Source of the DNA: Sclerodactyla briareus
Taxonomy: Eukaryota > Echinodermata > Holothuroidea > Dendrochirotida > Sclerodactylidae
Assembly (NCBI GenBank): GCA_026419785.1
Contig: JAODTK010005840.1
Coordinates: 62,001-126,000 of the forward strand
Length of the DNA: 64,000 bases
Direction: 5' to 3'
Part shown: positions 4,410 to 42,390 of the stretch, one piece after another
Numbering within the stretch: position 1 is the first letter of the stretch
Layout: every line of letters begins with the position of its first letter
Position numbers and translations under genes: made by a program
The notes under the pieces: generated by a model
What the model was told of the DNA's origin: nothing
The model's database searches: none
Seen by the model: only the letters and a program-made list of their open reading frames with translations

Positions 4410-4505
4410 TCAATAATATCGGCCTGCCCCGCCATGCTGCCCATGGCCTTGGGAACTGGAGTATCCTGACGGCCGGACCTGCGGGGGAGAGCCTTGATAG
4501 GAAGC
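4410..4505 (-). CDS. GPS2: GPS2 last coding exon (C-terminus)
   Basis: After CCTTGCAG the frame reads ASYQGSPPQVRPSGYSSSQ, GHGQHGGAGRYY and a TGA at 4410-4412. A short Gly/Ser/Gln tail ending in an R-aromatic-aromatic tip resembles the vertebrate end (NPRFYHK). Another frame through the same bases is open for longer (ending NSV) but lacks the family's composition. The TGA frame is preferred for that reason. Confidence 0.7.
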   Translation of the reverse strand, partial: ASYQGSPPQVRPSGYSSSQGHGQHGGAGRYY

Positions 4506-7500
4506 CTGCAAGGGAGGAAGATAATAAAATATAGATGTATTCGTACAACAGACAGCAAACTGGATTGCGTTCATGTCTCAGTACCACAACCTGAATTGAG
4601 GAGGGAGACAGACCAGTGTCAAGGGTCAGGGAAAGTGTGAACCAACTTGTCTTGAAAATTATGATTCCTTCTAATCAGCATATTGAGGAAGCCAACCCTC
4701 AAAGTGACTATCAGACTGTCAGTGTGATGTTAAGAGGGAGGAAGAGAGAGACAGGTCAACACAAAATTCACATTTTTCAAAAAAAAAAACTCACGAGTGT
4801 GGTGAATCTGATTCAAAACAAAAATTTGCAGATTTATTCCAAGAATGGATGCAAACAATTCACCCACTTCGGAGGAAATATTGGATCTTGCACCTCCCTC
4901 ATGGCAGAATGAGAATTGAAAAATACTGAGCAATGGCAATATTGACTTTGTTCCCCTTGTGACATCACTGGACCCAGATGACCAATGTTGATAACACAAC
5001 GAGAAACCCTTCTTAAAAGAAAGTACCCAAAAATGCCAGAGTTTTACAAGTTTCACTCTTTTTCCCAAATCGACTCGTACAAAATGAACCACATTCTTGT
5101 ACTCATAACGGGGAACAAACCTAACAACCATAGCCTGTCCAATTTAGCCTGATCACACACACACGACATGCTACTCGTGACTGTATAGACAAGTTGGGAC
5201 TTTCATCCAGGGAAAAAATGTGAGTTGACCCTCACAGAGACCATCATATGGTGCGTATAGCACTTTTCCACCTTCAAATTGGGGAAGTCATCCCAAAGGC
5301 ATATCAGGGAGGGGACTAAGAACCATTATGCTGAGGTTTCTGGTACAGAACAACTAAACCTTCAGCAACCAACAGCCAGAATCTGAGCAGTCAAAAGAGA
5401 TTTTTGCGAGTGGTAGGATTTGTACTGAATTCTGCAAGCTTTGTCTGTGCAGCATTTTGGCTGCAGAGAAATTTTGAAAGTTGTGAGATCCAGGCAATTT
5501 ATTCAGCCCTCCTCCCCCTCCAACTAGAATTTTCTGTATGTCTTTGTCACCCCACCAGCTGAGGAACCCCGCCTTCATGTATGGTACCTCACCCCATGTG
5601 GTTGTGGGACTGGTTTCTTCTGTGAACCATAACCGGAGACTCTGGCTTCCTCCTTGACTGGTATGCTCCGGGTATACCCTGGAAGAGAGACGAAGAGAGG
5701 TACCGATATTCAGATTTGTTTCGTCTTGGAATTGACAAAGCAAACAGTACACCATCACCTAGATTAGATCAGTTTCTTGTATGGATGATTCATGGCTCTG
5801 TGGATCCCATACCCATCTCTGTAAACCTAATACCGCATATTCAGACACTTTCCCTCTCTGCGCTCGAGGGAATATGGCATTATATGAATGAATATGAGTT
5901 ATGTTTCATCCTGCATCCATACCTCCAGAATCCTAGCCTTACACAGGTAACATTGAGGATGTTCTCACCTTGTTCTGGGCCTGTTGTATATGGGTGACCT
6001 GCTGATATAACAGTTCCTGGTGAGGCAGAGCCTGGCCGGCGTGTACCGCACCCATCGGTCGCAAATGCTGCAAAACAAGAGAGATTTTGGGGTTCACACC
6101 AATGGTTCCGGAAACCTTTATCTCCAGTGCAGTTCTTCCCTTCCTCGCCAATCAGCCATTGGCAGCCCAAGGTTGTTCCTCAGAAAATATATCCGATACA
6201 GAACGGACAATACAGACTGCATACACCAGTACATGTATGTGTGAGCAGTGAAGAGATAACAGTAAAAAGATCCTTTTACGTGCAGTTACCACTTTGAGAT
6301 CTATATGTCACAGTTAGTTCTTACCATACTCTTTGGTTCAACAAAATTGGTTGCCTTCCCTACTCCTGCTACAAACCAACTTTGGGGACTCAGAGATCCA
6401 CCTTTGTTATCTCACATCCCTCCTAATATATGCCCCTGGGTTACCACTGGTATTCCTAGCAGATCAACAGGCTTCTTCCAGTTGCAGAGCACAGCACAGC
6501 ACCTTTCTCCTGATAAGCAAGCTTGGAGTTACAGTTTAATGAGAAGATAATGATATTGCATCAGAGGTCATAAGGAAACAACAGCAGTTTGACGTTGAAC
6601 GTACAGTATGCAGAACGAAACTCCCGGAACTCCCCTGCCGAAAATGACAAATCCTACCAAACAGACTTGCCCCGGATTGCCCCCCATACTCATCAACGAT
6701 GACATCCAAAAACATGGTATGAATTGTTTGCGTTTTCAAATAGTGGTGAGAGTTTAAAAATAAGCCGTAACATATTGGCAATGGGGGAAATCTGGTTTAT
6801 TCCTCCGAACTGTCCAGTGGAGAGCATGCACACTTACAACTTATTAGCTGCAGTTTGATCATCAGTTAGCAAAGTATAACCGATCATGACCTCAGGGTGT
6901 GCTGTTTGACGCTGTAAAGGGCTGGTCCCACTATAACGATTTCTATCGTTCTGCTACACGATCTTTTTAGATTTCAGGCTGAACCAGGAAGGAGAGGGTC
7001 TGTGTGGTAACAATTGTCATGAATACTAGTACATTATCACAATACCTTCTCAAGATCGAAAGTGTTCGGAAAAAAAACCTCATTCCTAAATGACGTCATA
7101 TCGAAAAATGGTAAAGTCGTACGATAAATCGTTGAGGTCAACGATAAATAGGAAAATGTGATTATCAAAACGCCGGGAAGGGTTTTTCCACATTGAATGG
7201 TTTGGCAAATAGCGAATCAAGTCCTCCATTTATGTGGCCAGGGTGTTCCAGCTGTCATATTAATAGGCCCAGTATTAATCGGCCTGAACCAATAATATCG
7301 GATGTTGCACGACACGATATCGTTATAGTGTGACCGGCCCTTAACTTTCAATTAGGCAAAATCAGGCACAGTCTCCAACCCAGAGAAGCAATATTGTCTG
7401 GAGGCAACTGTGGAAAACTGAGAACGGCGTTTGTCATTATGCACACCAGGAATCGTTGCAGTGGAATTCTATACAGATAAAGAGTATACGATCACTATCT

Positions 7501-10500
7501 CAAAACAGTTATTAATTTTTGCCTTTTACTATACAACCAAAATAAAGCACGCCACACAATCGGTACAGTCCATTTTTTGCCAGCTGCTGAGGCTATATTG
7601 GCTCTTTAACATTAAAAAATACTTTTGATGTCACATATATCAAAGGCCCTGTTGGGAGGGAGAAGAAAGTAGGGAAATGATTCTCAGCACTGCCCCAACA
7701 CAAATCAGGAGGTAAGGTGTTTACATTGAAACAGGGATCATCCCCTCTATGGTAAACTGATTCTGAAAAATTGTGTAACATTATCTCCCCAAAATTGTTG
7801 ACAAGCGGGCAGTTTCTTTCAATCATCGGGCTGGAGCTGCTGAGCTATCTAAATTCCAACCAAAGAACTGTAGGCTACAACTTGGGAGTCAGCGGTTGAA
7901 GTCAAACAGGCATTTTGTCAATGGCTTATTTTTCCAAGTGAGGGACCTGTTTCTAAAACAGAAACACCACATGTCACCACAGCGTGCTACTATGCCATAT
8001 CTAATTCTATACCTGTCCCTGCATCATCAAATGGACCCCTGTGGGGCTTAAAGGTTGTAGAATGGAGCTGAATCTCGAAAGAGGTGACTAAATCGGAGAA
8101 CAACACCTTATGCACTTGAGTCATCGTGGAGTCACTGTCCCAATATCTAGGTGACGCACTACTTGGGTCATGTACCAATGCTGTCAGTCCCTGAAGTGAC
8201 TGAGGGGTCAGTCTTGTCAGTCAGTTGTTTCACTTTGTTCAGCAGAGTACAGTCTGTGGTCTCTTGAAATTGACTGTGGGTTGTGTCACTTCCAATGATT
8301 TGTCAGTCACAAAAGTGACTGAGGGGGTGGGTCACCATGCTCAGTTTGTGGAACAACTTCAGAGCAATGACACCACCTTGTTCGGTGGTAGCTAAGCTAG
8401 GGGTACATCATGCTATTGACAGGTACATTGCAAGTTTGCAAATCAAAACATGATGTAACATAAACTAATGCCCACGAAGGGCATCATATCCAACCATGCC
8501 GTTGAGTCACATGATCAGTCATGTCACTAGACTCACCTGGGTCTGCAGCTTAGACTGGTAGTGTTCATCTGCATGGCTGGACGCCTTACTGGATGAGTCT
8601 AGGCCACCTTGGACAGCCGCAGGTGGATAACCTGGATACAGAAAAATAATTATCAATATTACAAAAGTTATTTCACTCAATATGGCGTACAAGTCATGGC
8701 CAAACATTTCCAGTGAGGACAACCTCCCTCCCCCCTCCCCCTGGTGGCAATTATTCCTGAAACATTTTGTACAAGCAATTTTCTACAAATAGGCTCTCCT
8801 GGGTGTTGCCCACTCGCAGTTGTTATTGTTTAACCTCTTTACATCCATTTCCCACATAAATGTCCACTAGGAGCCTTCACATGCATGTAGAACGACTTGC
8901 GAGCCCTGGTGTTTCGAGGTTGGGGCTGCTCAGTGGTAACTATACCAGTGAAATTATCACTTATCGGGGGTACATGCTCAGAAACTCCATAAAGGATATT
9001 AGGATGCATCTAGTAACCCTGGCCATATGGACTTGATTTGATTTCCATGGGTTCAGAAAGCCATTCAAGGCTCATCTAGGAACCGGGCTATGATGAACGT
9101 GGATGAGCACCGGCCATGACTCGCTCTCTTCTCAACTAGTACTCAGATTACATCGAGTCAGGGTGTACCAATCCCATCCTCTCCCAGGACAGCCATTCTA
9201 CGTCACCATCTGAAAGGACTATCAGTGTTCAACGTGACTGCTCACAGCCAACACTTATTGCAAAGATTCCGTAACAAACCCCAGAAAATCAACTCCATTA
9301 CAGCAGAACCATTGAGTGAAGACCAAGACGTCACCTATCTCATAGTAAGTACAGCCACCTAGGGAAAACGTACGACGACTGCTGGATTTCATACCCAAAC
9401 TTTTGCTTGCAAAGTGTCACTGATACCAATCTACCATTCTTCTGCCCATGCTTTCATACCTATGGGTATTTGAAATTCCAACTCGCCATGACAACCATAA
9501 TATCTTTAACCTTCCCTTCACAATGGAAAAAAATGCATATAGGTCTTTGCATTCGAATACCCGAATTCAAATACCCATAAAGATCGGAGCAAGTAACACA
9601 TATTGTAACAACTGACAGGTTGACTGATTCCCTATATTCAGGTTCATTTTTTGCTGACATCTCCGAATTTGGAAAGAGCCCCGTGTGGGTCAAAGGAGCC
9701 TCAACGCCCTCTTCCGTGGGGCTTCTTTGAAGGACAAAATTGAAAAGAGCCCCTGTGAGGCAAAATTAATTCCTACCCTGGGTAAGGAAGCATGCACAAT
9801 AAACTGAGACTCACCGTGGAAACCCTGTGTATAGTGCTCCCCCTGGCTCTCATGAGGATTTCGTGCAAGCGATTGGCCCATAGTCCCTAGCTCCTGCAGC
9901 GGTGGCCTGGTACTTGGATGGGTTGCTCTGAGCCCCGGAGGGGAAGGTCCCATGGAGGCCAGCTGGCTGCCGGTTAGGGGGGTAACCCACTCCGCCCCCG
10001 GACTGGGACTGGGAGATGAAGGCGGAGGACGAGGCTTGGGCACTGGTATATGGGGGGTGCCCTGAGAAGTGAAGGAAGAATATTGACCAACGGATTTGTG
10101 AGAGTAGACAGTCTGATCGTTCAAAATAGCGACGTCTTCAAAAAATCTGCTGCGAGGGTTGTCACTGGTACATCTGACCTGAACAACCCTTACACTGGTT
10201 ACCCGTCACGTACGCAAATGTCTCTCTAGAAATGCCCCCACCTACTTGACGAAATGGGCTAAAGACGGGTTGAATATTGCGGGCCCTTACGTTGAATTCA
10301 CTTCTGCTTCAAACTTGTAGTATTGAAGATTTCACGAAAACCAAATCTACTGTTGAGACTCATTTTAAGGAGGATCTTTGTAAATATCTGTAATTGTTAT
10401 TGTTTGTACAACACAGTCGAGTATTCCTCAAATGTTCGGGCTTAAGAAATGATCCAATAATAATAGGCACACTCACAGAGGCTTTGAACTGGAACATGGA

Positions 10501-13500
10501 AGTCCTTAAGGAGGGAGAAATTGACTAACAGTTGTGTGAGAATAGACAGTTTATGACTCAGGCTGGGCCCGTCATCTAAGCACACTGATGGATGTTCTGG
10601 CCTTGGTATACCGTGAGGGGGGGGGGGGTGTCTTGTGAGAGTAAGAATACGGACTGATGTGAGCAAATTGACAATTCATGAATTAGGCTGGGGCGATTTA
10701 GGCACACTGATCAAGTTCATGGCCACTGGATCATAGACAATGATATAGAGATTTATTTTCCCATGCTCACTATCATGACAATGAAACATACTACATTTCA
10801 ATGAGGATGTGTGCTATCGCATGTGGTTCTGATGAATGTAAATTGCTTGGCAGATGCAGATATAACTAGCAAGATAAACATTTAACAGAGACTGTCCACA
10901 TAAAAAAATTGTCAGGATAGCTGTAAAACATGGTTTTAATCTGTTTTAAATTCCAATTTGTCTATTCCCTGATTTCCAAAATAACATGTTACATGCTTAC
11001 ATTCATTGGGAGTAGTTTTATCCCTGATCCCATACCTCTAAAAAACAGGAACACTTAGGCCATGGCCAGGAGAGAAATGTAATCTTCCAATATGACTGAG
11101 CCAGCACTTTCTTTCATTTTCGAGTCTCACTACTGGGCATGGGCTAACATGCAGGAGGGTGGAACTCCTGCAGAGACTAATTAACCTCTTGGTCTGAAGG
11201 ACCCTGCAGGGTACATTCCTGGGGGGAAGTGGCCCTGCTGGACAGCGTGCTGGGGGTAGAGATCAACCACAGGGGGTGAGGGACTCCTGGCCCGCTTGAT
11301 ACCCTGCAAGATGGAAGAGTTAATACTGATAAATGACCACTCTCACACACCCCTACATAGGATTTTCGGGAGGAAACCTGCAAAGTAATGTGGTGAGTAT
11401 TCATGGGGTGGGGGAAGGTGTAGGGGATCCCTGAACTATAAGTTGGAAATTGGAATAAATTATGCAAATTAAGGCACATACAATGACTTCTACTGACCCC
11501 AGCTGTACCTTTAAAATGATCAGGATCAAAGGTGGATCACATCTACCAAGTTTTGTGGAATTCCAACAAACTTTCAAAAATTGCATAAATTATGCAAATT
11601 AGACACATTAAATGACCTCCAGTGACCCCGACTTCACTTTTAAATTTCTCGGGAACCATGTAGACCACATTCACCAAGTCTTGTGAAATCCGACAAACTT
11701 GAAAAATTCGTCATAAATTATGCAAATTAAAGCACTTAATTAGCATCTTTGAGGCTGAAAATCTAATCAGTTCATCTACCTGTCATCCAGGTCCTACATG
11801 CCAAACTACATCACTGTAGCACATACGGTTCTACACACAAAATTTTGTCATATCGCCCTCACGGTTTGTGAGAAATCCTGCTAACAAGAAAGTGTGACAC
11901 ACACGCACTGGCACACGCATGCACACACACGCCATAGTGACCACTATGTCTCTTCCTGAATTTCATTCAGGCGAGACAATAAAAATTTAAAAAATCTATG
12001 TCACAAAACGATACTTTTGTTTTGAATTACCGCGACAACTTAAACTAACGTAACATTCTCGGTATCACCCAAAATACTGGCCGATAGAATGTATTGACGC
12101 TGCACTCGGCCGCCCTTCGCCATGCAAGTCCCCAGTGCAGTGCTAGGGTGCCAGCTGTCTAGCGAGCTAGCTGGCCAAAGATAACTTACAGTGCTGAATG
12201 TACTTGCATTGCACAGTGCAGACATACACATACGTACTAGCTTTGTGTACAAAACAGTGAATGCAATTACTTTCATGCCTGTCCTTTTTGGGACTCAAAA
12301 TGACACCTAGATGACCACCGACTCCAAATTCTTGAACACCACCCACCCCATAAAGTACTATTAGTCACTGATGACAATCACCCCATGGTATGATCATCAA
12401 ATTTATCCGCATGAGAAGCGTTTGACTCAACAAAATACCCTAACCCTGGATGACTGCTGACCCCCAACCCCTAGCACACGAACACAAGAACATTTTTAGT
12501 TTAGATGGAGTTTATCCCCACGAATGTTATATAACAGAATGTTATAAAGATTTGATTCAGTTTGAGGACCAGATGCACGCATGTTTTTCCCGAGTTCAGC
12601 CCCCTGTACGCCTACAGCATCTTGAGTTTCAAGTTTATATTCCACCATATACAAAGCCCCCATTGACCATCTACATAATCTTAACGCAGTGAATTATACT
12701 GGAGAAACGAATATACACTACAGTACAAGAAAACACAATGCAATACTACATATGAAACATTCTATAGGCAGCTGGAGGTGGAAGGACCAGAAATAAGTAT
12801 GACTGATCAGACTATCCCCTGTGCCAAGCACACACACATACAGGTGAAGTCAAACACCTTTGCTTCTATGTTTCCTGTTCATATATATAACAGGGGGAGC
12901 CAAGACCTGCAACACAGCCTGAGCGTCCAGTGAGTACTAATAACAGATGGACCAAAATGCTATTGTTTATTAGACGTATCATGGTTTTGTAGGTCCTATG
13001 TGTGGCGGCGAATAGGGCCGAGCAGCTCAATCAGAGGCCAATGTCTGCTATGGATATGCCACTGCCCACCACATTCATCAAAACCCCTGATTTGATCTAC
13101 AAAACTCACTTTTCACAGCAACGTACCCAATAGTCCGTTCGGAGTTCAATATTCTTCGCTGAATTGTGCAAGTTTTTCACTGAAATGCGCAATTCATCAC
13201 ATCCGATATTATAATATTTCCAACTTGACATCTGATAAAAATAACTGTATCATATCGCTTAAATAACACTTTTTTTTGACGTCCGATAAAGTTATCATAT
13301 CGTATCGCACTAGTGTGAACTGCCCTCTCGCATTGCGAAGCTTGAATATTTTTCTTTTACCTGTGGGGCGGGCGGAGTCTGCGACTTGAACATCTTGTCA
13401 TTGAGCATGGAGGGCCGACCGTGTTTGTGTTGTTGTTAATGGCGTCCCTGCAACAGAATCAAAAACATTCGCTGCTTGCTCTCCCTACCCAAAAATATGC

Positions 13501-16500
13501 ACCAAATTTTCAAGGAAGACATTGAACAAGATGAAAACTGAATAAGAAAATTATGCTCATACCCATGTGGTACCTTCCCAAACCAGAACATAGGCCAGCA
13601 CTCTAGACAATGATTGAAATACCTCACCGACCAATGAGGAGTTCGCAATAAAGAGATGACTTTACAACTGGCAAACCACGCACAACCTGTTTAGGAGTAA
13701 CTGCGATCAAATATTCTGCTGCTCCTGTCTGAGCTTTCACGAGGTGCACTGCATAGAGTTCACTTGTGGCAATGTTGCATACCAATCCGATGTGAAGTAA
13801 TGTGACTGGATTGGTCGCAACCAGTAGTTTAAAATTTGAATGCATCTGTTTGTGCCAATGCAATATAATTTGGGAATGCTAGTGCAATGCATGTACAAAA
13901 GTGAACAATTTTGGTCAGCATTCACATTTCTCATACTATTCCATGGGAGTTGATGCTAAGCTCACCTTGTGCTGAGAGAGCATATTGTGATCCATTCATC
14001 AATATCTGAGGGTACTGGTGGCGAGACAGATGTACTGATGTGGGCTCACCTTGTTCTGAGAGTGTATGTGACCCATGCAACTGGGGTTACTGGTGGTGAG
14101 TCAGATGTACTGATGTGGGCTCACCTTGTACTGAGATCATATGTGATCCAGGTATTGGTATCTGGGGGTACTGGTGGTGAGTCAGATGTACTGATGTGAG
14201 CTCACCTTGTACTGAGATCATATGTGATCCAGGTATTGGTATCTGGGGGTACTGGTGGTGAGTCAGATGTACTGATGTGGGCTCACCTTGTACTGAGATC
14301 ATATGTGATCCATGCATCAGTATCTAAGGGTACTGGTGGTGAGTCAAATGTACTGATGTGGGCTCACCTTGTACTGAGATCATATGTGATCCATTCATCA
14401 GTATCTGAGGGTACTGGTGGTGAGTCAAATGTACTGATGTGGGCTCACCTTGTACTGAGAGCATATGTGATTCATGAATCGGTATCTGAGAATACTGGCG
14501 GTGAGTCAGATGTACTGATGTGGGCTCACCTTGTACTGAGAGCATATGTGATTCATGAATCGGTATCTGAGAATACTGGTGGTGAGACAAATGTACTGTT
14601 GTGGGCTCATTTTGTACTGAGAGCATATTGTGATCCATTCATCAGTATCTGAGGGTACTGGTGGCGAGACAGATGTACTGATGTGAGCTTACTTTGTACT
14701 GAGATCATATGTGATCCGGGCATTGGTATCTGGGGGTACTGGTGGTGAGTCAGATGTACTGATGTGGGCTCACCTTGTACTGAGATCATATGTGATCCGG
14801 GCATTGGTATCTGAGGGTACTGGTGGTGAGTCAGATGTACTGATGTGAACTTACCTTGTACTGAGATCATATGTGATCTGGGCATTGGTATCTGGGGGTA
14901 CTGGTGGTGAGATGGGTGACTGATGTGAGCTTCCCTTGTACTGAGATCATATGTGATCCGGGCATTGGTATCTGAGGGTACTGGTGGTGAGTCAGATGTA
15001 CTGATGTGAGCTTACCTTGTACTGAGATCATATGTGATCCGGGCATTGGTATCTGGGGGTACTGGTGGTGAGATGGGTGACTGATGTGAGCTTACCTTGT
15101 ACTGAGATCATATGTGATCCATTCATCAGTATCTGAGGGTACTGGTGGTGAGTCAGATGTACTGATGTGGGCTCACCTTGTACTGAGATCATATGTGATC
15201 CGGGCATTGGTATCTGGGGGTACTGGTGGTGAGATGGGTGACTGATGTGAGCTTCCCTTGTACTGAGATCATATGTGATCTGGGCATTGGTATCTGAGGG
15301 TACTGGTGGTGAGATGGGTGACTGATGTGAGCTCCCTTGTACTGAGATCATATGTGATCCGGGCATTGGTATCTGAGGGTACTGGTGGTGAGATGGGTGA
15401 CTGATGCTGTAGTCATTCATAGCTGGCCTCATTGCACTGCAGAAGAAAAAGTATGTGGAAGATTTCAAAATTAACATGGAATCATCAGTGTAAACAAGGC
15501 GATCGCCAGAATTGTCTCGCCTGGTTGCACGATCACTACACTACACACTATAACACAACCACTGTTCAGCAGACCATCTTTATTTCCAAACGAACATCAC
15601 ACAACATTTCACATATAACACATCGAAATTCCTGACATAACGACCCATAAGTTAGACTCTTATACCGAAGTCTCTTATTGTGTTTTTTCTTATTCATGCA
15701 CCCCCCACTCTTCGCGCCATAAATACCCAAATTTGAATAAAGTTTTATTGCTCAGTCAACTCACTCCTTTGACCCAGAATGCAACTTGAGAGGTTCTAAA
15801 CCCCCTTAGCAGCCCGGGCTTCTTTGCTTTTTAAAATCATTTCCTTCATTATTCATGCCTTTTTATTTTCCAAGCAGTCAGGACATGCCAATTCCCCCCC
15901 CCCCCCGCCATGCAGCCACATGACCCTCCCCCGCCTCGCCCACACACCAACAACTATCCCCACGCAGCAATCAGGATCTCCCAAATATATCTTTAGGAAA
16001 CCTCCGATTTGTCCCCAGGCAAAAAAAATGTTACAGCATTTGAGTGTCTAATCAACCTAATCAAAATTGGTTTGTTGGTGGGCAGCTTATAACAGCACAA
16101 TTGTCACAGGAGCTATGGTTTACTCGTTCCTCAGTGCTTCATTCTAACAGAAACTATCATATGATGGAATTCAATCAAATTCATGAACATCAAACACATT
16201 AGATTCAGAAAATGGTAATGAACCATACCTACTGAGTTTCGCAAAATTCTTACCAACTTGGAATTTGGAATAAATTATGCAAATTAGCACATCAATGATT
16301 CTCATGACAGCAGTAGAATTGTCACAGGAGCTATGGTTTACTCGTTCCTCATTGGCTTCATTCTAACATACTATCATATGATGAATCAATCAAATTCATG
16401 AACATCAAACACCAGATCCAGAAACAGACCATACCTACTGGTTTGGCCAACATTCCTTACCAAGTTGGAAATTGGAATAAATTATGCAAATAGGCACAAA

Positions 16501-19500
16501 CAATGACCTCCACTGACCCCATCTGTACCTTTACAATAATCAATATCAGTATCAAAGGTGACACATCTATCCATTTTGTGGAAATCCAACAAACTTCAAA
16601 ATTGCCTAAAATATGCAATTAGACCATTATGACAGCCTTTACCCCCACTTCTCTTTTAAATTTCTCGGGTACCATAGTAGAGTCCACATCCACCAATTTC
16701 TTGAAAATCTGAAGAACTTGAAAATTTACATAAATTATGCAAATTAGACACTTAATTAGCATATTCAGGCTGAAATCTTCAGTTCATCTACCTGTCCATC
16801 CAGGTCCTACATGCCAGAGAAGTGTGACATACACACATCACACACATTCATATGATCACTAAGTTTCTTCCTGATTTTCTTTCGGCGAGACTCAAATTGT
16901 GTAACCTGTGGGGCCTTCATTGCACTATTGAAAAAATAATTAGGAATCACCTTTTCCATTTAGTAGAAATATTTAAGGTTTATTTATTTATTTATTCTTC
17001 ATTAGGAAGTTTTGCAGCAATCCAAAATTCCTTAGAACCCTGGAGGTACGGCTATTAGACTGTCTTTACAACTGAACATCACACGACCTTGTGCATCAAT
17101 CTTGCACTATTGCCAATTGGATTCTCCCTCAATTTCTCTGCATAATTGGACCACACTTTGGGGCCAATAACTCCACATAGGAATGTCGTAGTGATTCAAG
17201 CCTGCAGTTGTCCTTTAAGACAATGGACGGTCTATATGTCCCATTGAATCAACAAAGAGACCAATCAAATCAACTCACTGTTCTGTTCCTTGATCTGTTT
17301 CCGTCGGTTCTCAGCTTCGTGGATTACCTTTTTCAGCATGCATGATTTTCATGCTTCTCTCCTCTCAATGAGACCAGCTTTTTCTCCAGGGTGGTGATCT
17401 GAAGGGAGTAAGGTATACATCATGCCCAGAATAGCACGCTGAGCTGGGCCTTGGACAATCCTATCCATCCCTGTAGGTGGTCCCTGGTATGCTAAGCATT
17501 CGTGAACTCAGTATTATGCATACACTGCAACGCTCGAAGCCGGTCTGGACAATTGGAACCTATTATGCCCCTGTAGATCCTGGTTTCTACACGCAATGCA
17601 TGAACTGCGTGATGCGTACACTGCACGCTGATATTGTTTTGCACCCTTTTGCATATATGTTCAGTGATTCACGTATTCTAACAATAGCACAGGGCAACAC
17701 TCCACTGAAGATGTTTTCATTAACTTGGATTGGGACACTGAGGAGAGCTATGAGGCAATGACGGCCTGTGTGCCCGGGGTGGGGGGCATACCCACTGTTA
17801 CCTGAGACATGAGATGCGTTCTCATGCCCTCTCTGAAGTGACAGGGCCTGACAAATTGACACAAGGGCTGATTGAAGCAGATTCAACTCAATACAGTTTA
17901 TGAACAAATCAATGTATCCCGGAACACTGTGCAATCGAGGTGCAGGTAACTTATAGCTCCTTGGTTAGTTATAATAATGAACATAGAAATACTAAATTTT
18001 TATACAAGGCGATTGTCCAAAAAGTTGTCCTCGCCTGGATGCGCGACAGTGGGTTTGTATATTCACTCCCAAACACCACTAGTCATGCAGACCATCGTCA
18101 GGTCAAACGAACATCACATATTTTCACATATAATACATGAAACTTCCTAAAAAATCCTAAAATACTGACCACTAAGTTTGACTCTTACTACACAATTCAC
18201 TTATTCCGCTTTTTCTTCTTCAAGCCCCTCCCCCCCCCCCCACTCTTCTCTCCATAAACACCCAAATTTGAATAAAGTTTATCGCCCGTTCTTTCTTTGA
18301 CCCAAAATCCACTTGAAATATCTAAATTCCCTTGTAGCCTCATGCTTCTTTGCCTTTTAAAATACAAATTTCCTTTTCCCATTATTCACTTGCCTTTTAT
18401 TTTCCAGCACCAGGACTGCCATCCATCCCCCACCCCCTGCCATGCAGCAAACACCCTCTCCTCCCCCACCCCCCCCCCTCCTCCGCCACACACCAACAAA
18501 CTAGTCCCCATGCAGCAGTCAAGGTGTCCCAAACTAATCTATATAAACTCCCCATTTGGTCTATCTATTGTTTGCCTATTTTGACATATAAATTTGACAG
18601 ACTGCAGCACAACAGTTCCTGGCATAGTCCCATGTAAGAAGAGAGTCAGAAAGAATGTTTACAGTATTTTTGTCAGGTCTAATCACCTAATCAAATTGGT
18701 TGGGGTAAGATAGGGTTTGCTTGTGGCAGCTATAACAGCAGTGAAATGTCACAGGAGCTATGGTTTACTCGTTCCTCAGTGCTTCTTCTAACATTAGCGA
18801 TCCTATGATGGAATTCATCAAAATTCAGGAACATCAAACACATCAAGCCAGAAAAATTTTAAACATACCATACCTACTGAGTTTGGCAAAATTCTTACCA
18901 TGTTGGAATTGGAATAAATTATGCAAATATGCACATACAATGACTCCCACTGACCCAGCTGTACCTTTAAAATGATCAGGATCAAAGGTGGATCACCTCG
19001 ACCCCACGTTTTGTGGACATCCACACACTTTCAAAATTGCAAAATTACCATATTCATTCCACTAGCTCCCTGGGCGGCTTACAAAGTTTCAGGATGGGCC
19101 GTATCGAGTATTGCTTTACAAGTGGTTTTTATATTTGTTTTTGGGTGTATTTTTCGCAAAACTGCACCTGTCTACTTATAACACACATTAACAATATCGC
19201 ACGATGGAGCCGCGATTACTAGGCTGGAGCTGGACCAATTTTTTTATGTACGGTTATGGCTGTATGCACTCCCAATGAATCAAGCTAGTGCTGTGCTACT
19301 GGCTTGCATTCAAACAGAACATATTTTCAGGATTTTTGGCCGCGCATATCAACCTTATATTTACAAGAGTTTGAAAAGAGTTGGGTGGGCGCTTAATACG
19401 GGAGATGGGCGCTTAGCAGAATGAATACAGTTGAACATAGACACATTATTTTGACCTCCAGTGACCCCGATTTTTTTTAATTTTCAAATTTTCTTAATGA

Positions 19501-22286
19501 TTACAATAATCCACATCCACCAAGTTTCGTGTAAATCCCCAAACTTGAAAAATTGCATAAATTATGCAAGTTAGACCACCTAATTAGCAATTTTTACGGC
19601 TGGAAATCAATCGGGTTTCATCCTACCTTCCATCCACTTCCTACATGCCAAACTACAGTCACTGTAGCCCATACGGTTCCTGCGTACTCTTGCCAAGGAG
19701 CTCAACGATGAATCACTAAACTGAGCTATTATCTCCACCTGGTCCTTGGTCTGCTCCAGGTCAGCGATTCTGCCTCTCGCTTCTTCCTGAGTTTTCTCTC
19801 CTGCTTCCGCCGCTCACGATCTTGTCTGCCCTCTCCTCCGCTGCGTAAGGGCCAGAAAGGTAGTTCTAACTTTGATGAAGTTACAAGCACTTTTCTCCGA
19901 CCAATTACCACATGCATGTATTGTACGTAGTTAGGTGGTGTTGGAATGACATTTTCCCCCCATTTGCAGGCCTTTGCCTATGTTTTTGTATGCATGATGT
20001 AGGATAGTGCCCTCTCGCAACTTTCTTGTGGTATATTGTCCCTAAAAACATTCTGTAGGAAAAAATCATGATACAATTGCATATATCCTGCAACTCTCCA
20101 CACTGCTCGTTCTCATGGATGTCAGCCCTGAGTTTCACTTACCGTGTGTGATTTTGAGAGTTCGAAGTTCAGGGTATATATCCGCAATTGCTCCAAACAT
20201 TCACTGGTGCATTAGAGTTCAGATTTATGTAATAACAGAGAGCCCTAACATTGCTGGGTGTTGTTGATAATGTAGGAATCCTTAAACAACTAGGCGATTA
20301 TTGAGCGACAATGTGCACTACTGCCATTCATGTGTTGGCCTCACTTGTTCTCTGGGTTATGTCAGGGACATGGTAACAATAGACAGAATAGTTACTCTAC
20401 AGCAAAACTGAGTCAGGACTCGACTCACTCAAGGAGTGGAAATTTTTAAATTTTCCACAATGCAAAAAGTATAAATGTAACCCGGCAGAAAATGGAAAAA
20501 GGGAGGAAAATGAATGAACATTAGATGAGAAATGGAAGGAAAAGATCCAATGGCATGTGGGACTTTCAATTATATCTATTTCATTGCGATCTTTGTTGAT
20601 AATCTCGTCATCAGCTAAACAGTAATTCATTCTAACTAGAAGCTCATGCCCCAATAGAATCACACATGGAATTTTGTATTGACTTATCATTTTTGTTACC
20701 CCAACGGAAGCACACTTTCAAAACTGGTCGTAACACTAATGTGGACACTGACAAACACTTTGGGAGGAATAATTATTAAATGGTATTGGCCAAGCATCAA
20801 AAACACTCAGTTAAGTAATTGTTCCAGCTTTGCACTGTCAGAATTTGCTCCGTGGAACGTATACCTAGTTGGTATCTCCAGTACGTGGCCGGCCGTGTTG
20901 TTCGCTTTTTCCCCACATACGGCAACGCTTATGAGCTCCCCCTTCTCTTCAGAAAAAATTTACAAACTTTACTATACTCGCGTGGCACGTGACCAACCAA
21001 GCAGCCCTCCTTCACAGTTGCCATAGCATTGTCGGTTGTGCATTGCTTCTCCTGAATTTCACAGCATTAATATTTTCGGCGACCAGGATTCCAACACCTT
21101 TATAGCCGCGTTTATGCATGAGCACACTAAGCTAGACTTCTGTGGTATCTGTAGTAATAGAGCCCTGCATCATTACATGTGGACCCAGTTCGGCCCCAAG
21201 AGACGACCGTAATGGATCAACGCGCAGTGTCAGAGGTTGCCGTAGAGCGTGCGCGTCTAGTAGATGAATACGGATGTGTGGGTCAGCAATTAGCCCACAG
21301 CTCTCAAGGAGATCTGGATCCAAAATGGACCCATGGGTTCGCATGATCAAAGTACACATTTTTTCCCAAAATAGATTGTCCCAATGCCCAAGATCCATTC
21401 GAAAGTGTGACACAAAGAGTGTGGAAAAGTTTAGAAAGGGCATGAATAATGCCGGCGTCTTCGAACCTCGTATATACCATATATACCAGGGTAGAAGCGG
21501 ACAAAAAACAAGAGGGTTTGTGTACTGCGTAGCGTAACCGTTGAAAGCACGTACGGTTTGTATTCAATCTATTATGGTAATTACCAAAAGTCACCAGTTC
21601 GAAAAGAACGCACCATTATCTCTAGTTGAACCTACGTGATTGACATAACAGTGATGATACCACAAATAGTTCCCATACCGTATATCTAATTAAACGCCTC
21701 GGGGGCGTTACATTTTCAAAGAGGGGGGTGATTATTTCAGGTAATTTCCTAAGGCAAAAATATAATTTGGCAGTCTGGCTCCCAAAATTTCCTATACTAA
21801 CCTGTGTTAGGCTACTTCCCAAAACCATAATTGGTGTACAACCTGTTCAAGGAGTAATTTCCATCGTTACTCGGTGAATATGCTTCCTAACTTCACTGGA
21901 ATGTCCCCAAAAAAGGGGGGAGGGCCTTTTTCACAGGGGGCTTCTATTACAGATTATACGGTATATAGGTTAAACCTACCCACACACATTTTAAGTGTAA
22001 CACTACATTTACCCCTACAAGAAAATGCAGGAAAGGAAGAGTCCTTCCACGTGGAGTGACCGGAACGTCATTAGGCTAGCCTACCAACACAATCTTTCAA
22101 ACCCAATTCAACACCACAAAGATGCGTCACGTTTTCGATACTTGATGACCAACATACCTGGCCGCTTTCCTATCCCGCTCCCTCATGATGACGGTTGTGC
22201 ATGGCCCCATCATGGACTTGGGATGCCTCTGTTCCAGCGGTGCAGGCATCTTGTCTGGGTTCTTGCTGTTGTTGCCCGTTGACATA
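4410..22286 (-). CDS. GPS2: GPS2 homologue, whole coding span (11 exons joined)
   Basis: G protein pathway suppressor 2 is a nuclear subunit of the NCoR/SMRT corepressor with TBL1 and HDAC3. Its N-terminal coiled coil binds the corepressor; it also inhibits Ubc13-type ubiquitin signalling in vertebrates. Exons on the minus strand, in order: 22158-22286, 19739-19840, 17279-17398, 15177-15436, 13361-13447, 11186-11303, 9815-10061, 8537-8631, 5969-6067, 5593-5678, 4410-4505. All but the first are preceded by AG and all but the last are followed by GT. Collinear landmarks shared with vertebrate GPS2 are MPA-LE at the start, RHIM-RER-RK, LE-TK-Q, LE-KL--L--EKH, LKKV-HE-E-RR, a HSM/HMIS-VQG stretch, GRP, LRPM---AL and a final aromatic-tipped tail. 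Several exons need one-base corrections to stay in frame. Any 5' UTR exon upstream of 22286 was not found. The identity is firm; exact joins in the fourth exon are not. Confidence 0.85.
5593..5678 (-). CDS. GPS2: GPS2 coding exon 10
   Basis: Acceptor CTTCCAG, donor GGG|GTGAGG. The exon enters in phase 0 (GIPGAYQSRR...) and, to join exon 11 in phase 0, must leave in the frame reading GYGSQKKPVPQPHG. The 86-base length is one short of 29 codons, which fits a single missing base. The whole exon is also open in another frame, so the residues of the middle part are uncertain. Confidence 0.6.
5969..6067 (-). CDS. GPS2: GPS2 coding exon 9 (LRPM motif)
   Basis: This is a clean 33-codon exon between TTTTGCAG and GTGAGA, phase 0 at both ends. 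It reads HLRPMGAVHAGQALPHQELL, then YQQVTHIQQAQNK. Vertebrate GPS2 has LRPMHPQALHPAPGLL followed by a Gln-rich stretch, so LRPM, the AL-P core and the spacing are conserved. No frameshift is needed in this exon. It is among the better diagnostic exons for the assignment. Confidence 0.85.
6917..7342. mobile_element. short TIR element (MITE) in a GPS2 intron
   Basis: The left end AAGGGCTGGTCCCACTATAA and the right end TATAGTGTGACCGGCCCTT are inverted repeats, each continuing with ACGAT. The flanks read TA on the left and AA on the right; with the TIR they may represent a TTAA-like or TA target duplication, but this is not clear. The internal 380 bases have no coding potential. A possible related end (CGCACTAGTGTGAACTGCCCT) occurs at 13305-13326. 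Confidence 0.7.
8537..8631 (-). CDS. GPS2: GPS2 coding exon 8
   Basis: A polypyrimidine tract with ATCCAG precedes the exon and CAG|GTGAGT follows. With the last base of exon 7 the frame reads GYPPAAVQGGLDSSSKASS, HADEHYQSKLQTQ, no stop, ending in phase 0. The family has GFSDSSSLRPMHP here. Thus the DSSS motif sits at the end of one exon group and LRPM starts the next, as found. Confidence 0.75.
9815..10061 (-). CDS. GPS2: GPS2 coding exon 7 (Gln/Ser/Pro-rich)
   Basis: Acceptor TTCTCAG, donor ACG|GTGAGT. The phase-1 frame from exon 6 reads HPPYTSAQASSSAFISQSQ, SGGGVGYPPNRQPAGLHG, TFPSGAQSNPSKYQATAAG. It then needs a one-base shift near 9870 to continue NPHESQGEHYTQGFHG, which joins in phase 1 to GYPPAAV of exon 8. 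A different frame (PVPKPRPPPSS...) is also open but gives no consistent join. Low-complexity Gln/Ser/Pro sequence is usual for this segment of GPS2. Confidence 0.7.
10137..10405 (+). pseudogene. relic of non-LTR retrotransposon RT C-terminus
   Basis: The plus strand reads KSAARVVTGTSDL and later SIEDFTKTKSTVETHFKED. This resembles the 'QKSAARVVTG...' and 'SIE-FK--LKTHLF' blocks at the C-terminus of CR1/jockey-type reverse transcriptase polyproteins. Frames are broken by several stops. It lies in the GPS2 intron between exons 7 and 6, on the opposite strand. The match is short, so the family is uncertain. Confidence 0.4.
11186..11303 (-). CDS. GPS2: GPS2 coding exon 6 (Pro-rich)
   Basis: After a CTTGCAG acceptor the exon reads GIKRARSPSPPVVDLYPQ, HAVQQGHFPPGMYPAGSFRPR in one uninterrupted frame. 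It joins in phase 0 to exon 5 and phase 1 to exon 7. The donor AAGAG|GTTAAT is weak at position +3 (T instead of A/G). It is nevertheless the only one that lets exon 7 be read in a sensible frame. Composition and position correspond to the Pro/Gly/Gln-rich middle of GPS2. Confidence 0.7.
11430..11977 (+). mobile_element. truncated copy of the CAGGCGAGAC TIR family
   Basis: The stretch has the family's ordered blocks: 'aaattatgcaaatta' three times, 'tgacctcc-gtgaccc', 'agaccacattcaccaagt', 'gtcctacatgccaaactaca', 'gtttgtgagaaatcctgctaac', a CA-rich run, and the terminal ATTTCATTCAGGCGAGAC ending at 11977. The left end is missing. It lies in a GPS2 intron. Confidence 0.65.
13361..13447 (-). CDS. 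GPS2: GPS2 coding exon 5
   Basis: The exon lies between a GTTGCAG acceptor and a GTAAAA donor. It reads QQHKHGRPSMLNDKMF, then KSQTPPAPQ. The family has GGHNRPGTLMAADRAKQMFGPQ at this place, directly after the SMQG that ends the preceding exon, so order and motif agree. The first few codons contain a TAA in the matching frame. Removing one A restores a phase-1 join to exon 4, so a one-base insertion is likely. Confidence 0.75.
13961..15405 (-). repeat. 81-bp minisatellite made of GPS2 exon end plus splice donor, about 18 units
   Basis: The period is 81 bases (for example GATGTACTGATG at 14104 and again at 14185); some units are 80 bases. On the minus strand each unit reads CATCAGT-CATCTGACTCACC-CCAG..., YPQI-MPGSHMISVQ, then AAGGTGAGC or AAGGTAAGC. 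Each unit is therefore the last ~70 bases of GPS2 exon 4 plus the donor and a few intron bases. Of 18 donor positions, about 14 keep GT; those near 14608, 14931, 15255 and 15336 are broken. Because 81 is 27 codons the minus frame stays open over long runs. Units with CACCCATCTCACCACCAG lie next to the exon and look ancestral. Confidence 0.9.
15177..15436 (-). CDS. GPS2: GPS2 coding exon 4, 3' part expanded by a minisatellite
   Basis: After a TTCTGCAG acceptor the exon reads AMRPAMNDYSISHPSHHQ, then YPQIPMPGSHMISVQ, aligned to the family's TSAAYQQSLTVHTGTHLLSMQG. In the normal design a donor would follow VQ|G. Here the first two donor positions (about 15336 and 15256) are mutated from GT to GG, and the first intact donor (CAAG before GTGAGC) follows base 15177. 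The end given is that first intact donor. The frame stays open far beyond it, to 15028, so other ends are possible (see the array at 13961-15405). Confidence 0.6.
15514..16891 (+). mobile_element. full-length copy of the GTCTCGCCTG...CAGGCGAGAC element
   Basis: The copy begins GTCTCGCCTGGTTGCACGATC and ends TTTCGGCGAGAC, so the ends are short inverted repeats. Between them are 'cgaacatcacacaac', a C-rich stretch, 'caggagctatggtttactcg' (present twice because of an internal duplication near 16090 and 16320), and several 'aaattatgcaaatta' blocks. No transposase is seen; it is non-autonomous. It lies in GPS2 intron 3, immediately upstream of exon 4 in gene order. Confidence 0.65.
17065..17219 (+). 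mobile_element. fragment of the AAGGACAACTGCAGG element
   Basis: The block 'ggccaataactccaca-aggaat' and the end CAAGCCTGCAGTTGTCCTTTAA match the right end of the fuller copy at 43348-43943. The left end is not recognisable. It lies in GPS2 intron 3, next to exon 3. Confidence 0.5.
17279..17398 (-). CDS. GPS2: GPS2 coding exon 3 (coiled-coil heptads)
   Basis: After a CTTCAG acceptor the frame reads ITTLEKKLVSLRGEKHEN, then after a one-base shift LKKVIHEAENRRKQIKEQN, ending before a GTGAGT donor. The family counterpart is ILKLEEKLLALQEEKH followed by LKKVLHEEEKRRRKEQ, so both halves match in order and spacing. The shift lies at a CATGCATGC stretch around 17340, where one base seems to be missing. 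A fragment of a TIR element ends about 60 bases away in the intron. Confidence 0.85.
18027..19719 (+). mobile_element. CAGGCGAGAC-family copy, 3' truncated, with a nested insertion
   Basis: The copy starts GTCCTCGCCTGGATGCGCGAC and follows the same block order as the 15.5-kb copy. Its sequence stops in the block 'ggttcctgcgtactcttgcc' right before GPS2 exon 2 (19739). A 377-base insertion at 19051-19427 interrupts it. The missing right end suggests deletion up to the exon boundary. Confidence 0.6.
19051..19427. mobile_element. nested small TIR element
   Basis: The ends TATTCATTCCACTAGC and GCTTAGCAGAATGAATA are near-perfect inverted repeats. The insertion splits the family blocks 'ttcaaaattgc' and 'agacacattattttgacctcc' of the surrounding element, which defines its borders. 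No coding potential is seen. Confidence 0.6.
19739..19840 (-). CDS. GPS2: GPS2 coding exon 2 (charged coiled coil)
   Basis: The exon starts after a CAG acceptor and ends GACCAG before GTGGAG. It encodes a strongly charged helix. One frame reads EERADKIV, the next RERRKQERKLRKKREAE, and the last RIADLEQTKDQ. Joined, they follow the family order EEEE-DK, QERRKKKE-EER, LEETKEQ. At least two single-base shifts are needed, which is why no single open frame covers the exon. It corresponds to the part of GPS2 that forms the corepressor-binding coiled coil. The upstream flank is the truncated end of a TIR element. Confidence 0.75.
21455..21611. mobile_element. MITE with GCGT(T)CTTCGAA ends, copy 1
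   Basis: The left end GCGTCTTCGAACCTCGTATA and right end AGTTCGAAAAGAACGC form inverted repeats. Internal blocks 'gcggacaaaaaac', 'gcgtaaccgttgaaagcac' and 'ggtaattaccaa' recur in the copy at 50176-50332. It lies upstream of GPS2 exon 2 within intron 1. Confidence 0.65.
21678..21961. mobile_element. MITE with CCGTATAATCTGTAATA ends, copy 1
   Basis: The left end CCGTATATCTAATTAAACGCC and right end GGCTTCTATTACAGATTATACGG are inverted repeats flanked by TA on both sides, fitting a TA target duplication. The inverted second copy lies at 42440-42731 in RPL22. It lies in GPS2 intron 1, about 200 bases from coding exon 1. Confidence 0.75.
22158..22286 (-). CDS. GPS2: GPS2 coding exon 1 (start codon)
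   Basis: The reading frame opens at an ATG at 22284-22286 (MSTGNNSKNPDK...). A second in-frame ATG at 22247-22249 gives MPAPLEQRHPKS, which aligns with the start of vertebrate GPS2 (MPALLERPK...). Either could be the start. Further on come MHNRH (one frame) and IMRERDRKAA (another). These together match the family's MARALHRHIMMERERKR, so a base appears to be missing and another added about 20 bases later. The exon ends CAG before a GTATGT donor. A further in-frame Met exists upstream but is not supported by similarity. Confidence 0.8.
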
Positions 22287-22629: not shown

Positions 22630-25600
22630 TCTCGCCTGGTTGCGCGATCGTGGTTTCTATTGTCACTACACAAACAACAAACTAGTTAATGCAGACCATC
22701 GTCATTTCCAACGAACATCACATATTCTCACATATAACACATAAAAAATTCCTAGAATAACTGACCAATAAGTTTACTCTTAATACAAAAGTCCCTTATA
22801 TAATTGCTTTTTATTTCTTCATGCCCCCCCCCACTCTTCTCTCCACAAATATTATTATTATTATTATATACCATACTTCTATACGCCTCTTTCGAAAGAA
22901 ACTATCGTTCAGAAAACAAGGCTCTTTACAGATAAATGCATTCAATACAATGCCTCAAATGAATGAACCACCACTATAAACAGCGAATAAAAACATGGAC
23001 GAATGAACTAGGTAATAAAACTAACTATGGAGAAAAAAAATTTTTAGAAAAGTCCATGTATGATTATGAAAATCTCTATGATATAATATTGAATACAAAA
23101 AGGTCTGTAAGAGTTTAAAACAATATTGAAATTATATTTAAATGATACCGTTTTTAGACATTTCCTGCAATCCAGTGATTGCTCACATGCGAATGTATAT
23201 GGCAACTGATTTCAGAGTTTGCTGGCAGTGAAGCTGAACAGCTTATCACCAACCGCGTTGTTCTCACCCTGGGCACAGTTAACGATAAAGTGTTTCCTGA
23301 TCGCAAAGCCCTGGTTGGTCGATGGACAGTAAGCATCTTGTCCAGATATGACGGTGCTTCTTTGTGGCTGCATTTATAGGCCAGTACCAGTATTTTGAAT
23401 TCATGCGGCGTTCGACAGGTAGCCAATGTAGCTCACGCAGGGTAGGGGTGATGTGCGCGTGACAAGGTGTTCTGGTGAGACACATGCTGCCGTATTCTGC
23501 AACCGTGTAGCTTAGCCGTTGTCTAGGGGTACAGACGAGCAGAGAGTTGCAGTAGACCATGGGAGAGGTGACTAAGCCAGTGACCAATGAGTTGGTTGCG
23601 TCGTTGGTCAGGAAAGGTCTTATCCGGCTGATATTCGGCGGCTGGCGTACCCAGACCGGCAAAGCTGTGACCTGTCGGGCCATACTGAGAGTCGTGTCAA
23701 ATGAAACACCGCGGCTTCTGGCTTCCGACGTCGGTGTGATTGTCGATTCACCAACAGTAAACGATATGTGATCGATGTTTTCGGAGTCGTTTTAGAGGAA
23801 AAGAAACAATGGCTCAGTTCCACTTGTGTTTAATTTGAGTTGACACAATCCATTCCTCAATATCGTCCAAACAGCTTGACACGCGGGATAGTGCATCTTG
23901 TCGGAGAGCTGGTTGTTGGAATTGAAGGAGACATACAACTGGTGTCATCAGCATTAAAAGTGGTACTGAGGTGATGTCTACGGATAAGGTCTCGAGTGGC
24001 CACGTATAGAGAGGTGAGAGTACGACCAAGCACCGATCCCTGAGAAACACCGTATTTCACAGAGGCCGGTTCAGAGCGTGAAGTGCCAATGTTGACGACT
24101 TGATGGGCGGGTTGCGAGTAGGACGACAGGCCAAGCAGCGCAAGCCCTGTACAGCGTGACCGTCTCGGAGAGTCCCTCTCTAGCAATAGGCATGGTCAGA
24201 GTGCGAATGCAGGCGGACATATCCAACATTAAAAGTGCAAGCTGCATGGCCCTTGTCGATATCTGCAAGAAGGCGTTTTCACGCAGAGCAAAGCTGTTTC
24301 AAATGAATGTGCCTTCCGATATGCAGACTGCATTGAGGTTTGCAGATTTGCAGATTGCATGGAGGCTGTTGGTCACAAGGTGTCCTCAATGACGAATATC
24401 AACGACTTTCTCCAGTAGCTTCGAGACGAAGGCAAATTGGAGATTGGCCTGTAGTTACTGAGATTGTCTTCATCAAGGCTGGGATCTTAAATTGATCTGG
24501 GACCTTGAGAGAGATGAGTTGATAATCACGTTATTAGAGGCAACAGCTGGTCCACACATGACTTGAGCAACCAGGTTGGAACCGGGTCGAGGGCGCAAGA
24601 CTTAGTTGGTGATTTTAAAATAAGAGCTCTCACCTCTGCCTCAGTGATAGGGCTGAATCCATCAAGGGTCGACTGTACCGTTGGGGAATCTTCCTGGTGA
24701 TCCGTGGTGCTGGTCGTCGGAGCTGCCAACTGTTCGCAGATGTTTTCAATTTTAGTCGCGAAATGGTCTCTGAAGATGTTGGGGAAGCTGATCAGAAGGG
24801 AAGGCTCCTGGAAGTTTTGAGCTTTCACGCCCGCCCACATGAGCAATACTCTCTGAGAAGAAGTGTTCCTTTGATTTCTTGAAAAGCCGGTTGTATTCAA
24901 CACAGTGGTCCCGGTAGATATGGTGGTCGACAGATAAGCGACTCTCGCACGATTTCCGCTTTAGTCTCCTTCTCTCGTGCTTGGCGGATTGAATCTCGTC
25001 CGTGTACCACTGACAACCAGGCCTAGGAACAATGACCTTTGTGATGATAGGCGCGTGCTTGTCGAGAAGCGAGGTCAATCCACTGTTATAAGCACTCACG
25101 AGGTCAGTTGGCGAATCTGGAAATTGGTTTAACAGTGGTAAGTCGACGATGTCCTGTCGGAATGCTTCCACGTCGATCTTGGACAGTTTCTCGGCAGACA
25201 CCTTCTGCTGGCTAAGAGGAACCGGCTTGTGATAGTCATAGTGAAGTTGTGCGAAGTGGTCACGGGATGTTTTTCCACTGTAATTGACTAGAACGAGAGA
25301 CCGACGCTCAGAGTGATAGTATAGAAATTTTTATAATATAAGAAAATAATCCATAGAAAGTTTTTTCGCAATCCAAGCACAAATCCGGGGGTGGGGTTAT
25401 GGGGCCGGGGGTCAGCGTTCCCAGGTAAAAAGAGAGGAAAGAACAATTTCATCACGTATTTTTGGTGGGTCTAATACCTTATCAATTGTTGGGTAACGTA
25501 GGGTTTGCTTGTGGGCAGCTTATAACCACAGTCAAATTGTCACAGGAGTTATGGTTTACCTCGTTCCTCAGTGTCTTTACTCTCCCATATGGTTACTATA

Positions 25601-42265: not shown

Positions 42266-42390
42266 GGAAAGTCTAAGAGACCAAGAAGGTCAACCTGACC
42301 AAGGTCACGAGAAGAGGAAGGTCAGCTACAAGTTCACCATCGACTGCACCAGCCTGTTGTAGGACGGCATCATGGACAAGCGCCAACTTC
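42266..42390 (+). CDS. RPL22: RPL22 coding exon (N-terminal part)
   Basis: The exon follows a TTTCAG acceptor and ends CCAACTTC before GTGAGT. It holds KKVNLTK in one frame and [16 protein letters not shown] in another. It then has a TAG in place of the expected P-V-E before DGIMD; a missing C and an added T explain this. A further shift occurs in the last codons, where MDKANF joins to ETFLQ of the next exon. At least four single-base errors in 125 bases, with the protein otherwise recognisable. Confidence 0.85.

Follow-up and report, generated by a model that had tools for sequence, protein, structure and literature searches.

The 3′ end of exon 4 of a gene that looks, by its sequence, like GPS2 (G protein pathway suppressor 2) is repeated together with its splice donor some 18 times, head to tail, across the boundary of exon 4 and intron 4 in the sea cucumber Sclerodactyla briareus. 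The array is a real feature of the sequence, and is probably a boundary minisatellite of the type called 'mirage' in amphioxus, mostly a passenger in its gene and largely intronic. The kind of structure is known, whereas the gene and the phylum are new as far as we searched. The array was analysed within a window of 64,000 nucleotides (the whole stretch of contig JAODTK010005840.1 under study), and all positions are those of the window.

The host gene lies on the minus strand. Homology to an Apostichopus japonicus GPS2 protein (P0122), placed on the window by tblastn, is co-linear and falls, by reading, into 11 exons between 22285 and 4410, with the start at 22285 and the stop codon at 4412-4410. 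The exons other than exon 4, which is listed below with the donors, are as follows:

22158..22285, minus strand: GPS2 exon 1 with the start codon (tblastn of P0122, sequence, donor)
19739..19840, minus strand: GPS2 exon 2, homology in three frames (tblastn, sequence)
17279..17398, minus strand: GPS2 exon 3, homology in two frames (tblastn)
13361..13447, minus strand: GPS2 exon 5, with a stop of the conserved frame in its first codons, upstream of the aligned part (tblastn)
11186..11303, minus strand: GPS2 exon 6 (tblastn, sequence)
9815..10061, minus strand: GPS2 exon 7, homology in two frames (tblastn, sequence, donor)
8537..8631, minus strand: GPS2 exon 8 (tblastn, sequence, donor)
5969..6067, minus strand: GPS2 exon 9 (tblastn, sequence, donor)
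5593..5678, minus strand: GPS2 exon 10, homology in two frames (homology, sequence)
4410..4505, minus strand: GPS2 exon 11 with the stop codon (tblastn, sequence)

The full-length homology and the co-linear exons bear out the assignment to GPS2 made in an earlier note on this DNA, and the two exons that it had placed on either side of the array, 17279-17398 and 13361-13447, both match GPS2 in the tblastn search with P0122. A composite protein assembled from the window's exons (residues 1-395 of 413 scored) gave E 3.3e-134 (66%) against P0124 and E 2.8e-131 (62%) against P0122. Its seven matches were P0124 and three A. japonicus proteins, followed by proteins of a sea star, a sea urchin and a brittle star; the closest GPS2 proteins are echinoderm, and the nearest named one is holothurian. 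These matches place the animal among the echinoderms, nearest to the holothurians, with a divergence that sets it apart from A. japonicus, and a lancelet origin, which the literature on mirages had suggested, is rejected on them. A search scoring only the window-derived middle residues returned three proteins among 18 candidates, all from A. japonicus, and a query that was part human returned vertebrate proteins wherever a name was given, among the best 120 of 381 proteins, giving no guide to the animal's position. P0124 is 81-82% identical to P0122, so its source is probably a sea cucumber too, and this protein (411 residues, source contigs of at most 1528 bases) is probably transcript-derived. 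Both P0122 and P0124 carry PF15991, and in both the junction of exons 4 and 5 reads straight on, without a repeat. The window composite retains 99 of 118 echinoderm-invariant GPS2 residues. Pfam assigned no family to exon 3 (47 residues), to the frame of exon 4 and the array (170 residues) or to the open reading frame overlapping exon 7, pieces that were either short or read in part in a wrong frame.

Other repeats and open frames were seen in the window. At 11447-11729, some 145 bp upstream of exon 6 of GPS2, is a 129-bp tandem repeat of 2.2 copies, whose AT-rich part (ATAAATTATGCAAATTAG) resembles a motif seen again in GPS2 intron 3. A 441-bp tandem repeat of 2.5 copies lies at 55962-57063. 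Open frames on the minus strand at 23279-25330, two of them overlapping, appear by eye to be retroelement remnants, and three reading frames at 23.3-25.3 kb had no Pfam match. No known RNA families or tRNAs were found in the window.

The array and the two short sequences at its edges are:

13951..15392, minus strand: minisatellite at the boundary of GPS2 exon 4 and intron 4, 81-bp unit, about 18 units (Tandem Repeats Finder, junctions, unit alignment)
15402..15408, minus strand: exonic copy of AGCATCA, at the point in exon 4 from which the sequence is repeated (sequence)
13951..13957, minus strand: intronic copy of AGCATCA, directly behind the last donor (sequence)

Tandem Repeats Finder delimits the array at 13951-15392 with a period of 81, 17.9 copies, 89% matches and a score of 1978, and a search of the minus strand for copies of the exon end gave 18 exon–intron junctions; the amplification of the exon end together with its donor into about 18 units, as first described, is thereby confirmed. 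The unit alignment resolves each unit into 71-72 nt from the 3′ end of exon 4 and 9 nt from the start of intron 4. A period of exactly 27 codons, as stated in the earlier note, does not hold, because the spacings from junction to junction range off 81 nt: counted from the exon they are 79, 80, 81, 80, 81, 80, 81, 81, 82, six times 81, 75 and 84 nt, so that 10 of the 17 intervals equal 81 and 12 are divisible by 3. One base that is present in 13 other units is absent from units U2, U3, U5 and U7 and from exon 4 itself, a difference that is probably real because it is common to several units. Over the exon-derived part, these same four units are 97.2-98.6% identical to exon 4, compared with about 79% for U17 and U18, and pairwise identity among the units spans 70-99%, graded and with distinct subtypes. 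The coding exon appears, from these identities, to have been homogenised with its nearest units, high proximal and low distal identity being the pattern to expect from an exon end that is itself involved in the turnover of the array. Between 15436 and 13900 the minus strand contains AGCATCA at these two places and nowhere else; once the array is left out, the copies stand 81 nt apart, a distance equal to the period of the array. The heptamer is not rare in itself (10 occurrences over both strands of the whole window), and the pair may represent the short homology on which the duplication was founded, or else a decayed partial unit.

The 18 junctions, D1 (the own junction of exon 4) to D18, divide the exon and the array into segments that differ in what they would add to the protein:

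15336..15436, minus strand: exon 4 as far as D1, its own junction, GG as assembled (acceptor, sequence, homology to A. japonicus P0122, donor table)
15177..15335, minus strand: units 2-3, 159 nt or 53 residues, open and in phase, which would be added if D3 were used (donor table)
15096..15176, minus strand: unit 4, which would bring the addition to a total of 240 nt or 80 residues, open and in phase, if D4 were used (donor table)
13966..15095, minus strand: units 5-18, with 12 further GT donors and a stop before D5 (junction search, frames, donor table)

GT is found at 14 of the 18 junctions (10 GTGAGC, 3 GTAAGC and 1 GTAAGT), in keeping with the earlier count of about 14 intact donors. The two donors nearest the exon, D1 and D2, do read GG, as had been reported, but they are not the only ones altered, with GG also at D6 and AT at D10, and D3 is the first GT donor of the array. 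In a simple generic donor matrix the array's GT donors score high, at 7.8-12.7; seven other GPS2 donors (those of exons 6 and 10 being unscored) reach 4.5-12.2, and 91 further GT sites lying between exons 4 and 5 reach 7.0 at most. As assembled, only 2 of the 14, D3 (15177) and D4 (15096), combine GT with an open frame and the right phase. Translation continued out of exon 4 runs into a stop at 15030-15028, codon 135 from the ATG at 15432, and this stop precedes D5 and all later donors, which comprise 12 of the 14 GT donors in the assembled sequence.

An array maintained for the sake of donor choice or of the protein would be expected to show constraint on its donors or codon positions. Column counts reveal no detectable donor-specific constraint in the array, the nine donor columns holding 13 minor cells of 152, compared with 101 of 1201 elsewhere in the unit, and thus varying like the rest. 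Minor-cell counts show no clear bias among codon positions in the units either (29, 26 and 39 at positions 1, 2 and 3, out of 355 cells each), the largest number, at position 3, being a weak lean toward coding. Donors kept by selection are thus unsupported by the column counts, and a maintained coding repeat is judged unlikely on the codon-position counts, the stops in the array frames and the phase table. A structure in which every unit is a micro-exon having an acceptor to itself, considered by eye, is likewise judged unlikely, the intervening introns being only about 40 nt long.

These counts bear on a different reading of the array, in which D3, D4 and perhaps more distal donors alternate and GPS2 gains repeat-derived segments in some isoforms, as in human IFI6. 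The 14 GT donors of the 18, all scoring above the best of the 91 other GT sites, speak for such donor choice, as do the open, in-phase segments ending at D3 and D4, whose use in splicing is possible on this sequence. We nevertheless consider alternation of donors unlikely, if worth taking seriously: as assembled, an in-frame stop precedes 12 of the 14 GT donors, neither donor columns nor codon positions are clearly constrained, and P0122 and P0124 lack the repeat. The proposal in the earlier note that the protein carries variable numbers of a 27-residue repeat is left mostly without support, only D3 (53 residues added) and D4 (80 residues added) being open and in phase, and it is weakened further by the unconstrained columns and positions and the repeat-free relatives.

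Much depends here on D1. Were it truly GG, the own donor of the exon would be dead and donors of the array would be required, so that at least units 2 and 3 would be coding, a point against the array being a passenger. The distance from D1 to D2 is 79 nt, the D1 unit being one base shorter than its kind, and D1 is possibly intact because, besides this missing base, one-base breaks are common in the contig. That D1 has been lost, and that GPS2 has acquired a His/Gln/Pro-rich insert of 53, or of 80 or more, residues that varies by allele and by splicing, strikes us as rather improbable.

Frame and donor calls on this contig are unsafe, given the one-base frame breaks in GPS2 and in a second gene. 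The positions of the tblastn segments show GPS2 homology shifting frame inside exons 2 (twice), 3, 7 and 10, so that, with the stop in exon 5, the conserved frame is broken in 5 of the 11 exons; by reading, junctions 1-2 and 3-4 also seem out of phase. Sequence on both sides of the breaks is conserved, and no stop lies within the exon segments that align. To find a control gene, the six-frame translation of about 22.4-52.4 kb of the window was compared with Pfam, which gave one family, RPL22 (ribosomal protein L22):

42300-47277, plus strand: RPL22 gene in at least three pieces, near 42.3, 44.2 and 47.1-47.3 kb (Pfam)

Inside the 44.2-kb piece of RPL22, and close to where the last piece ends, frame changes are plain, and the first piece contains an in-frame stop and, by reading, two one-base breaks, one of which creates that stop; we estimate four one-base breaks in all. 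The last piece is 85% identical to the human protein over 34 residues, and other segments are 61% identical over 23, 77% over 13 and 39% over 38 residues. Such frame changes in spite of a conserved last piece are a warning on the base accuracy of the whole contig, and since two unrelated intron-bearing genes are broken alike, indel error in the contig is indicated.

The same breaks could mark a decaying copy of GPS2, a pseudogene perhaps lying with RPL22 in a duplicated segment, within which the array would be neutral. Besides the broken frame in 5 of the 11 exons, such decay would account for the change of 12 of 111 aligned echinoderm-invariant positions in the window, where P0122 and P0124 by the same measure each have 4 of 103 changed, and for private indels in the array being fewer than the exon breaks predict. 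Within the array (13966-15335, minus strand) at most 2 private one-base indels are present in 1370 nt; the expectation is 6.7 from the GPS2 exon rate (6 breaks per 1236 nt), 8.8 when junction mismatches are included (8 per 1250) and 16.6 from the RPL22 rate (4 per 330), and the probability of 2 or fewer runs from 0.04 to 1e-5 as the expectation rises from 6.7 to 16.6. However, RPL22 has breaks of the same type and yet is 85% identical to human over the 34 residues of its last piece, the GPS2 breaks keep conserved flanks and lie among aligned segments free of stops, and decay should have added many more substitutions, so that the pattern looks like indel error in the contig and a pseudogene has only a slim chance of being the explanation. 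The shortage of indels may reflect collapse of the array with a gain in read depth, errors spread unevenly, or decay with homogenised units; it also means that the bases of the array may be more trustworthy than assumed, which counts against the array being a passenger. That the array was made or mis-sized by the assembly, through collapse or expansion, is very improbable: the contig does look error-rich, and the few private indels would fit extra depth on collapsed units, but graded unit subtypes with 70-99% pairwise identity go beyond a pure artefact, although the copy number could be wrong.

The preferred reading remains a boundary minisatellite that is mostly a passenger. Its origin would lie in a head-to-tail duplication of 71-72 nt of the 3′ end of exon 4 with 9 nt of intron 4, initially perhaps between the two AGCATCA heptamers, after which slippage or unequal exchange would have expanded the duplicated segment and kept its copies alike, with the exon-proximal units still sharing sequence with the coding exon. 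Splicing would most likely proceed through an exon-proximal donor, D1 if its one-base shortness is a contig error and D3 or D4 if it is not, and the remaining array would be removed with the intron. This reading is supported by the repeat-free junction in P0122 and P0124 and by the unconstrained donor columns and codon positions, and also by the amphioxus mirages, which are reported to have no effect on regular splicing.

The name 'mirages' was given to tandem repeats at exon–intron boundaries of amphioxus Adh3, and they occur in globin genes too; splice signals are described in many, not all, of the units, without interference with regular splicing (PMC3087553). Mirages are also described for amphioxus TnC and PGBD5, the latter imperfect (PMC3902484). 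The GPS2 array resembles the mirages of Adh3, BflGb6/BflGb9, TnC and PGBD5 in being a minisatellite-like duplication of the boundary with exon and intron parts in each unit (PMC3087553, PMC3902484), and also in its homogenised units and in the splice signal kept in many of them, here as GT in 14 of 18. In dimensions it has about 18 units, compared with 6 and 3 in the two BflGb6 haplotypes, and a unit of 81 bp, compared with 150-160 bp in BflGb6, 157 bp in BflGb9 and 10-72 bp in Adh3. Thus the minisatellite-size unit across the boundary and the splice signal in many units are those of a mirage, and the host, an echinoderm, and the gene, GPS2, are not, the term having been used for cephalochordates. 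Tandem repeats are present in the amphioxus huntingtin scaffolds as well, with none reported at boundaries in the excerpt of that paper (PMC2206037).

Donor-bearing repeats have a human counterpart in IFI6 (also 6-16/G1P3). The splice donors of its minisatellite were reportedly described by Turri et al. in 1995, a study to which PMC2572611 and PMC2915984 also refer. According to a later account, this minisatellite supplies several donors that are used (PMC4526556). The two arrays are alike in that tandem units carry splice donors; they differ in that donor use in mRNA is described for IFI6, whereas the GPS2 array is known from genomic sequence, with most of its donors behind a stop. In human segmental duplications, expansion of internal tandem repeats shifts the extents of exons and introns and can activate cryptic splice sites; these are duplicated genes of primates, and units comprising a boundary and its donor are not described in the excerpted text (PMC2812944).

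The structure accordingly has precedents in amphioxus mirages and human IFI6; its occurrence in GPS2, for which the earlier note knew of no described case, does appear to be new, no earlier array in this gene having been found by a strict search of the literature. No report of an echinoderm boundary minisatellite was among the literature matches listed for sea cucumber or echinoderm, minisatellite, intron and splice. The GPS2 array extends the boundary minisatellite, in a long form, beyond the lancelet and human cases found, and supports the view that exon ends and donors, and perhaps introns as well, are commonly reshaped by boundary repeats as a general mechanism. Should donor choice prove true, it would be another natural minisatellite, besides that of human IFI6, that tunes protein length through splicing.
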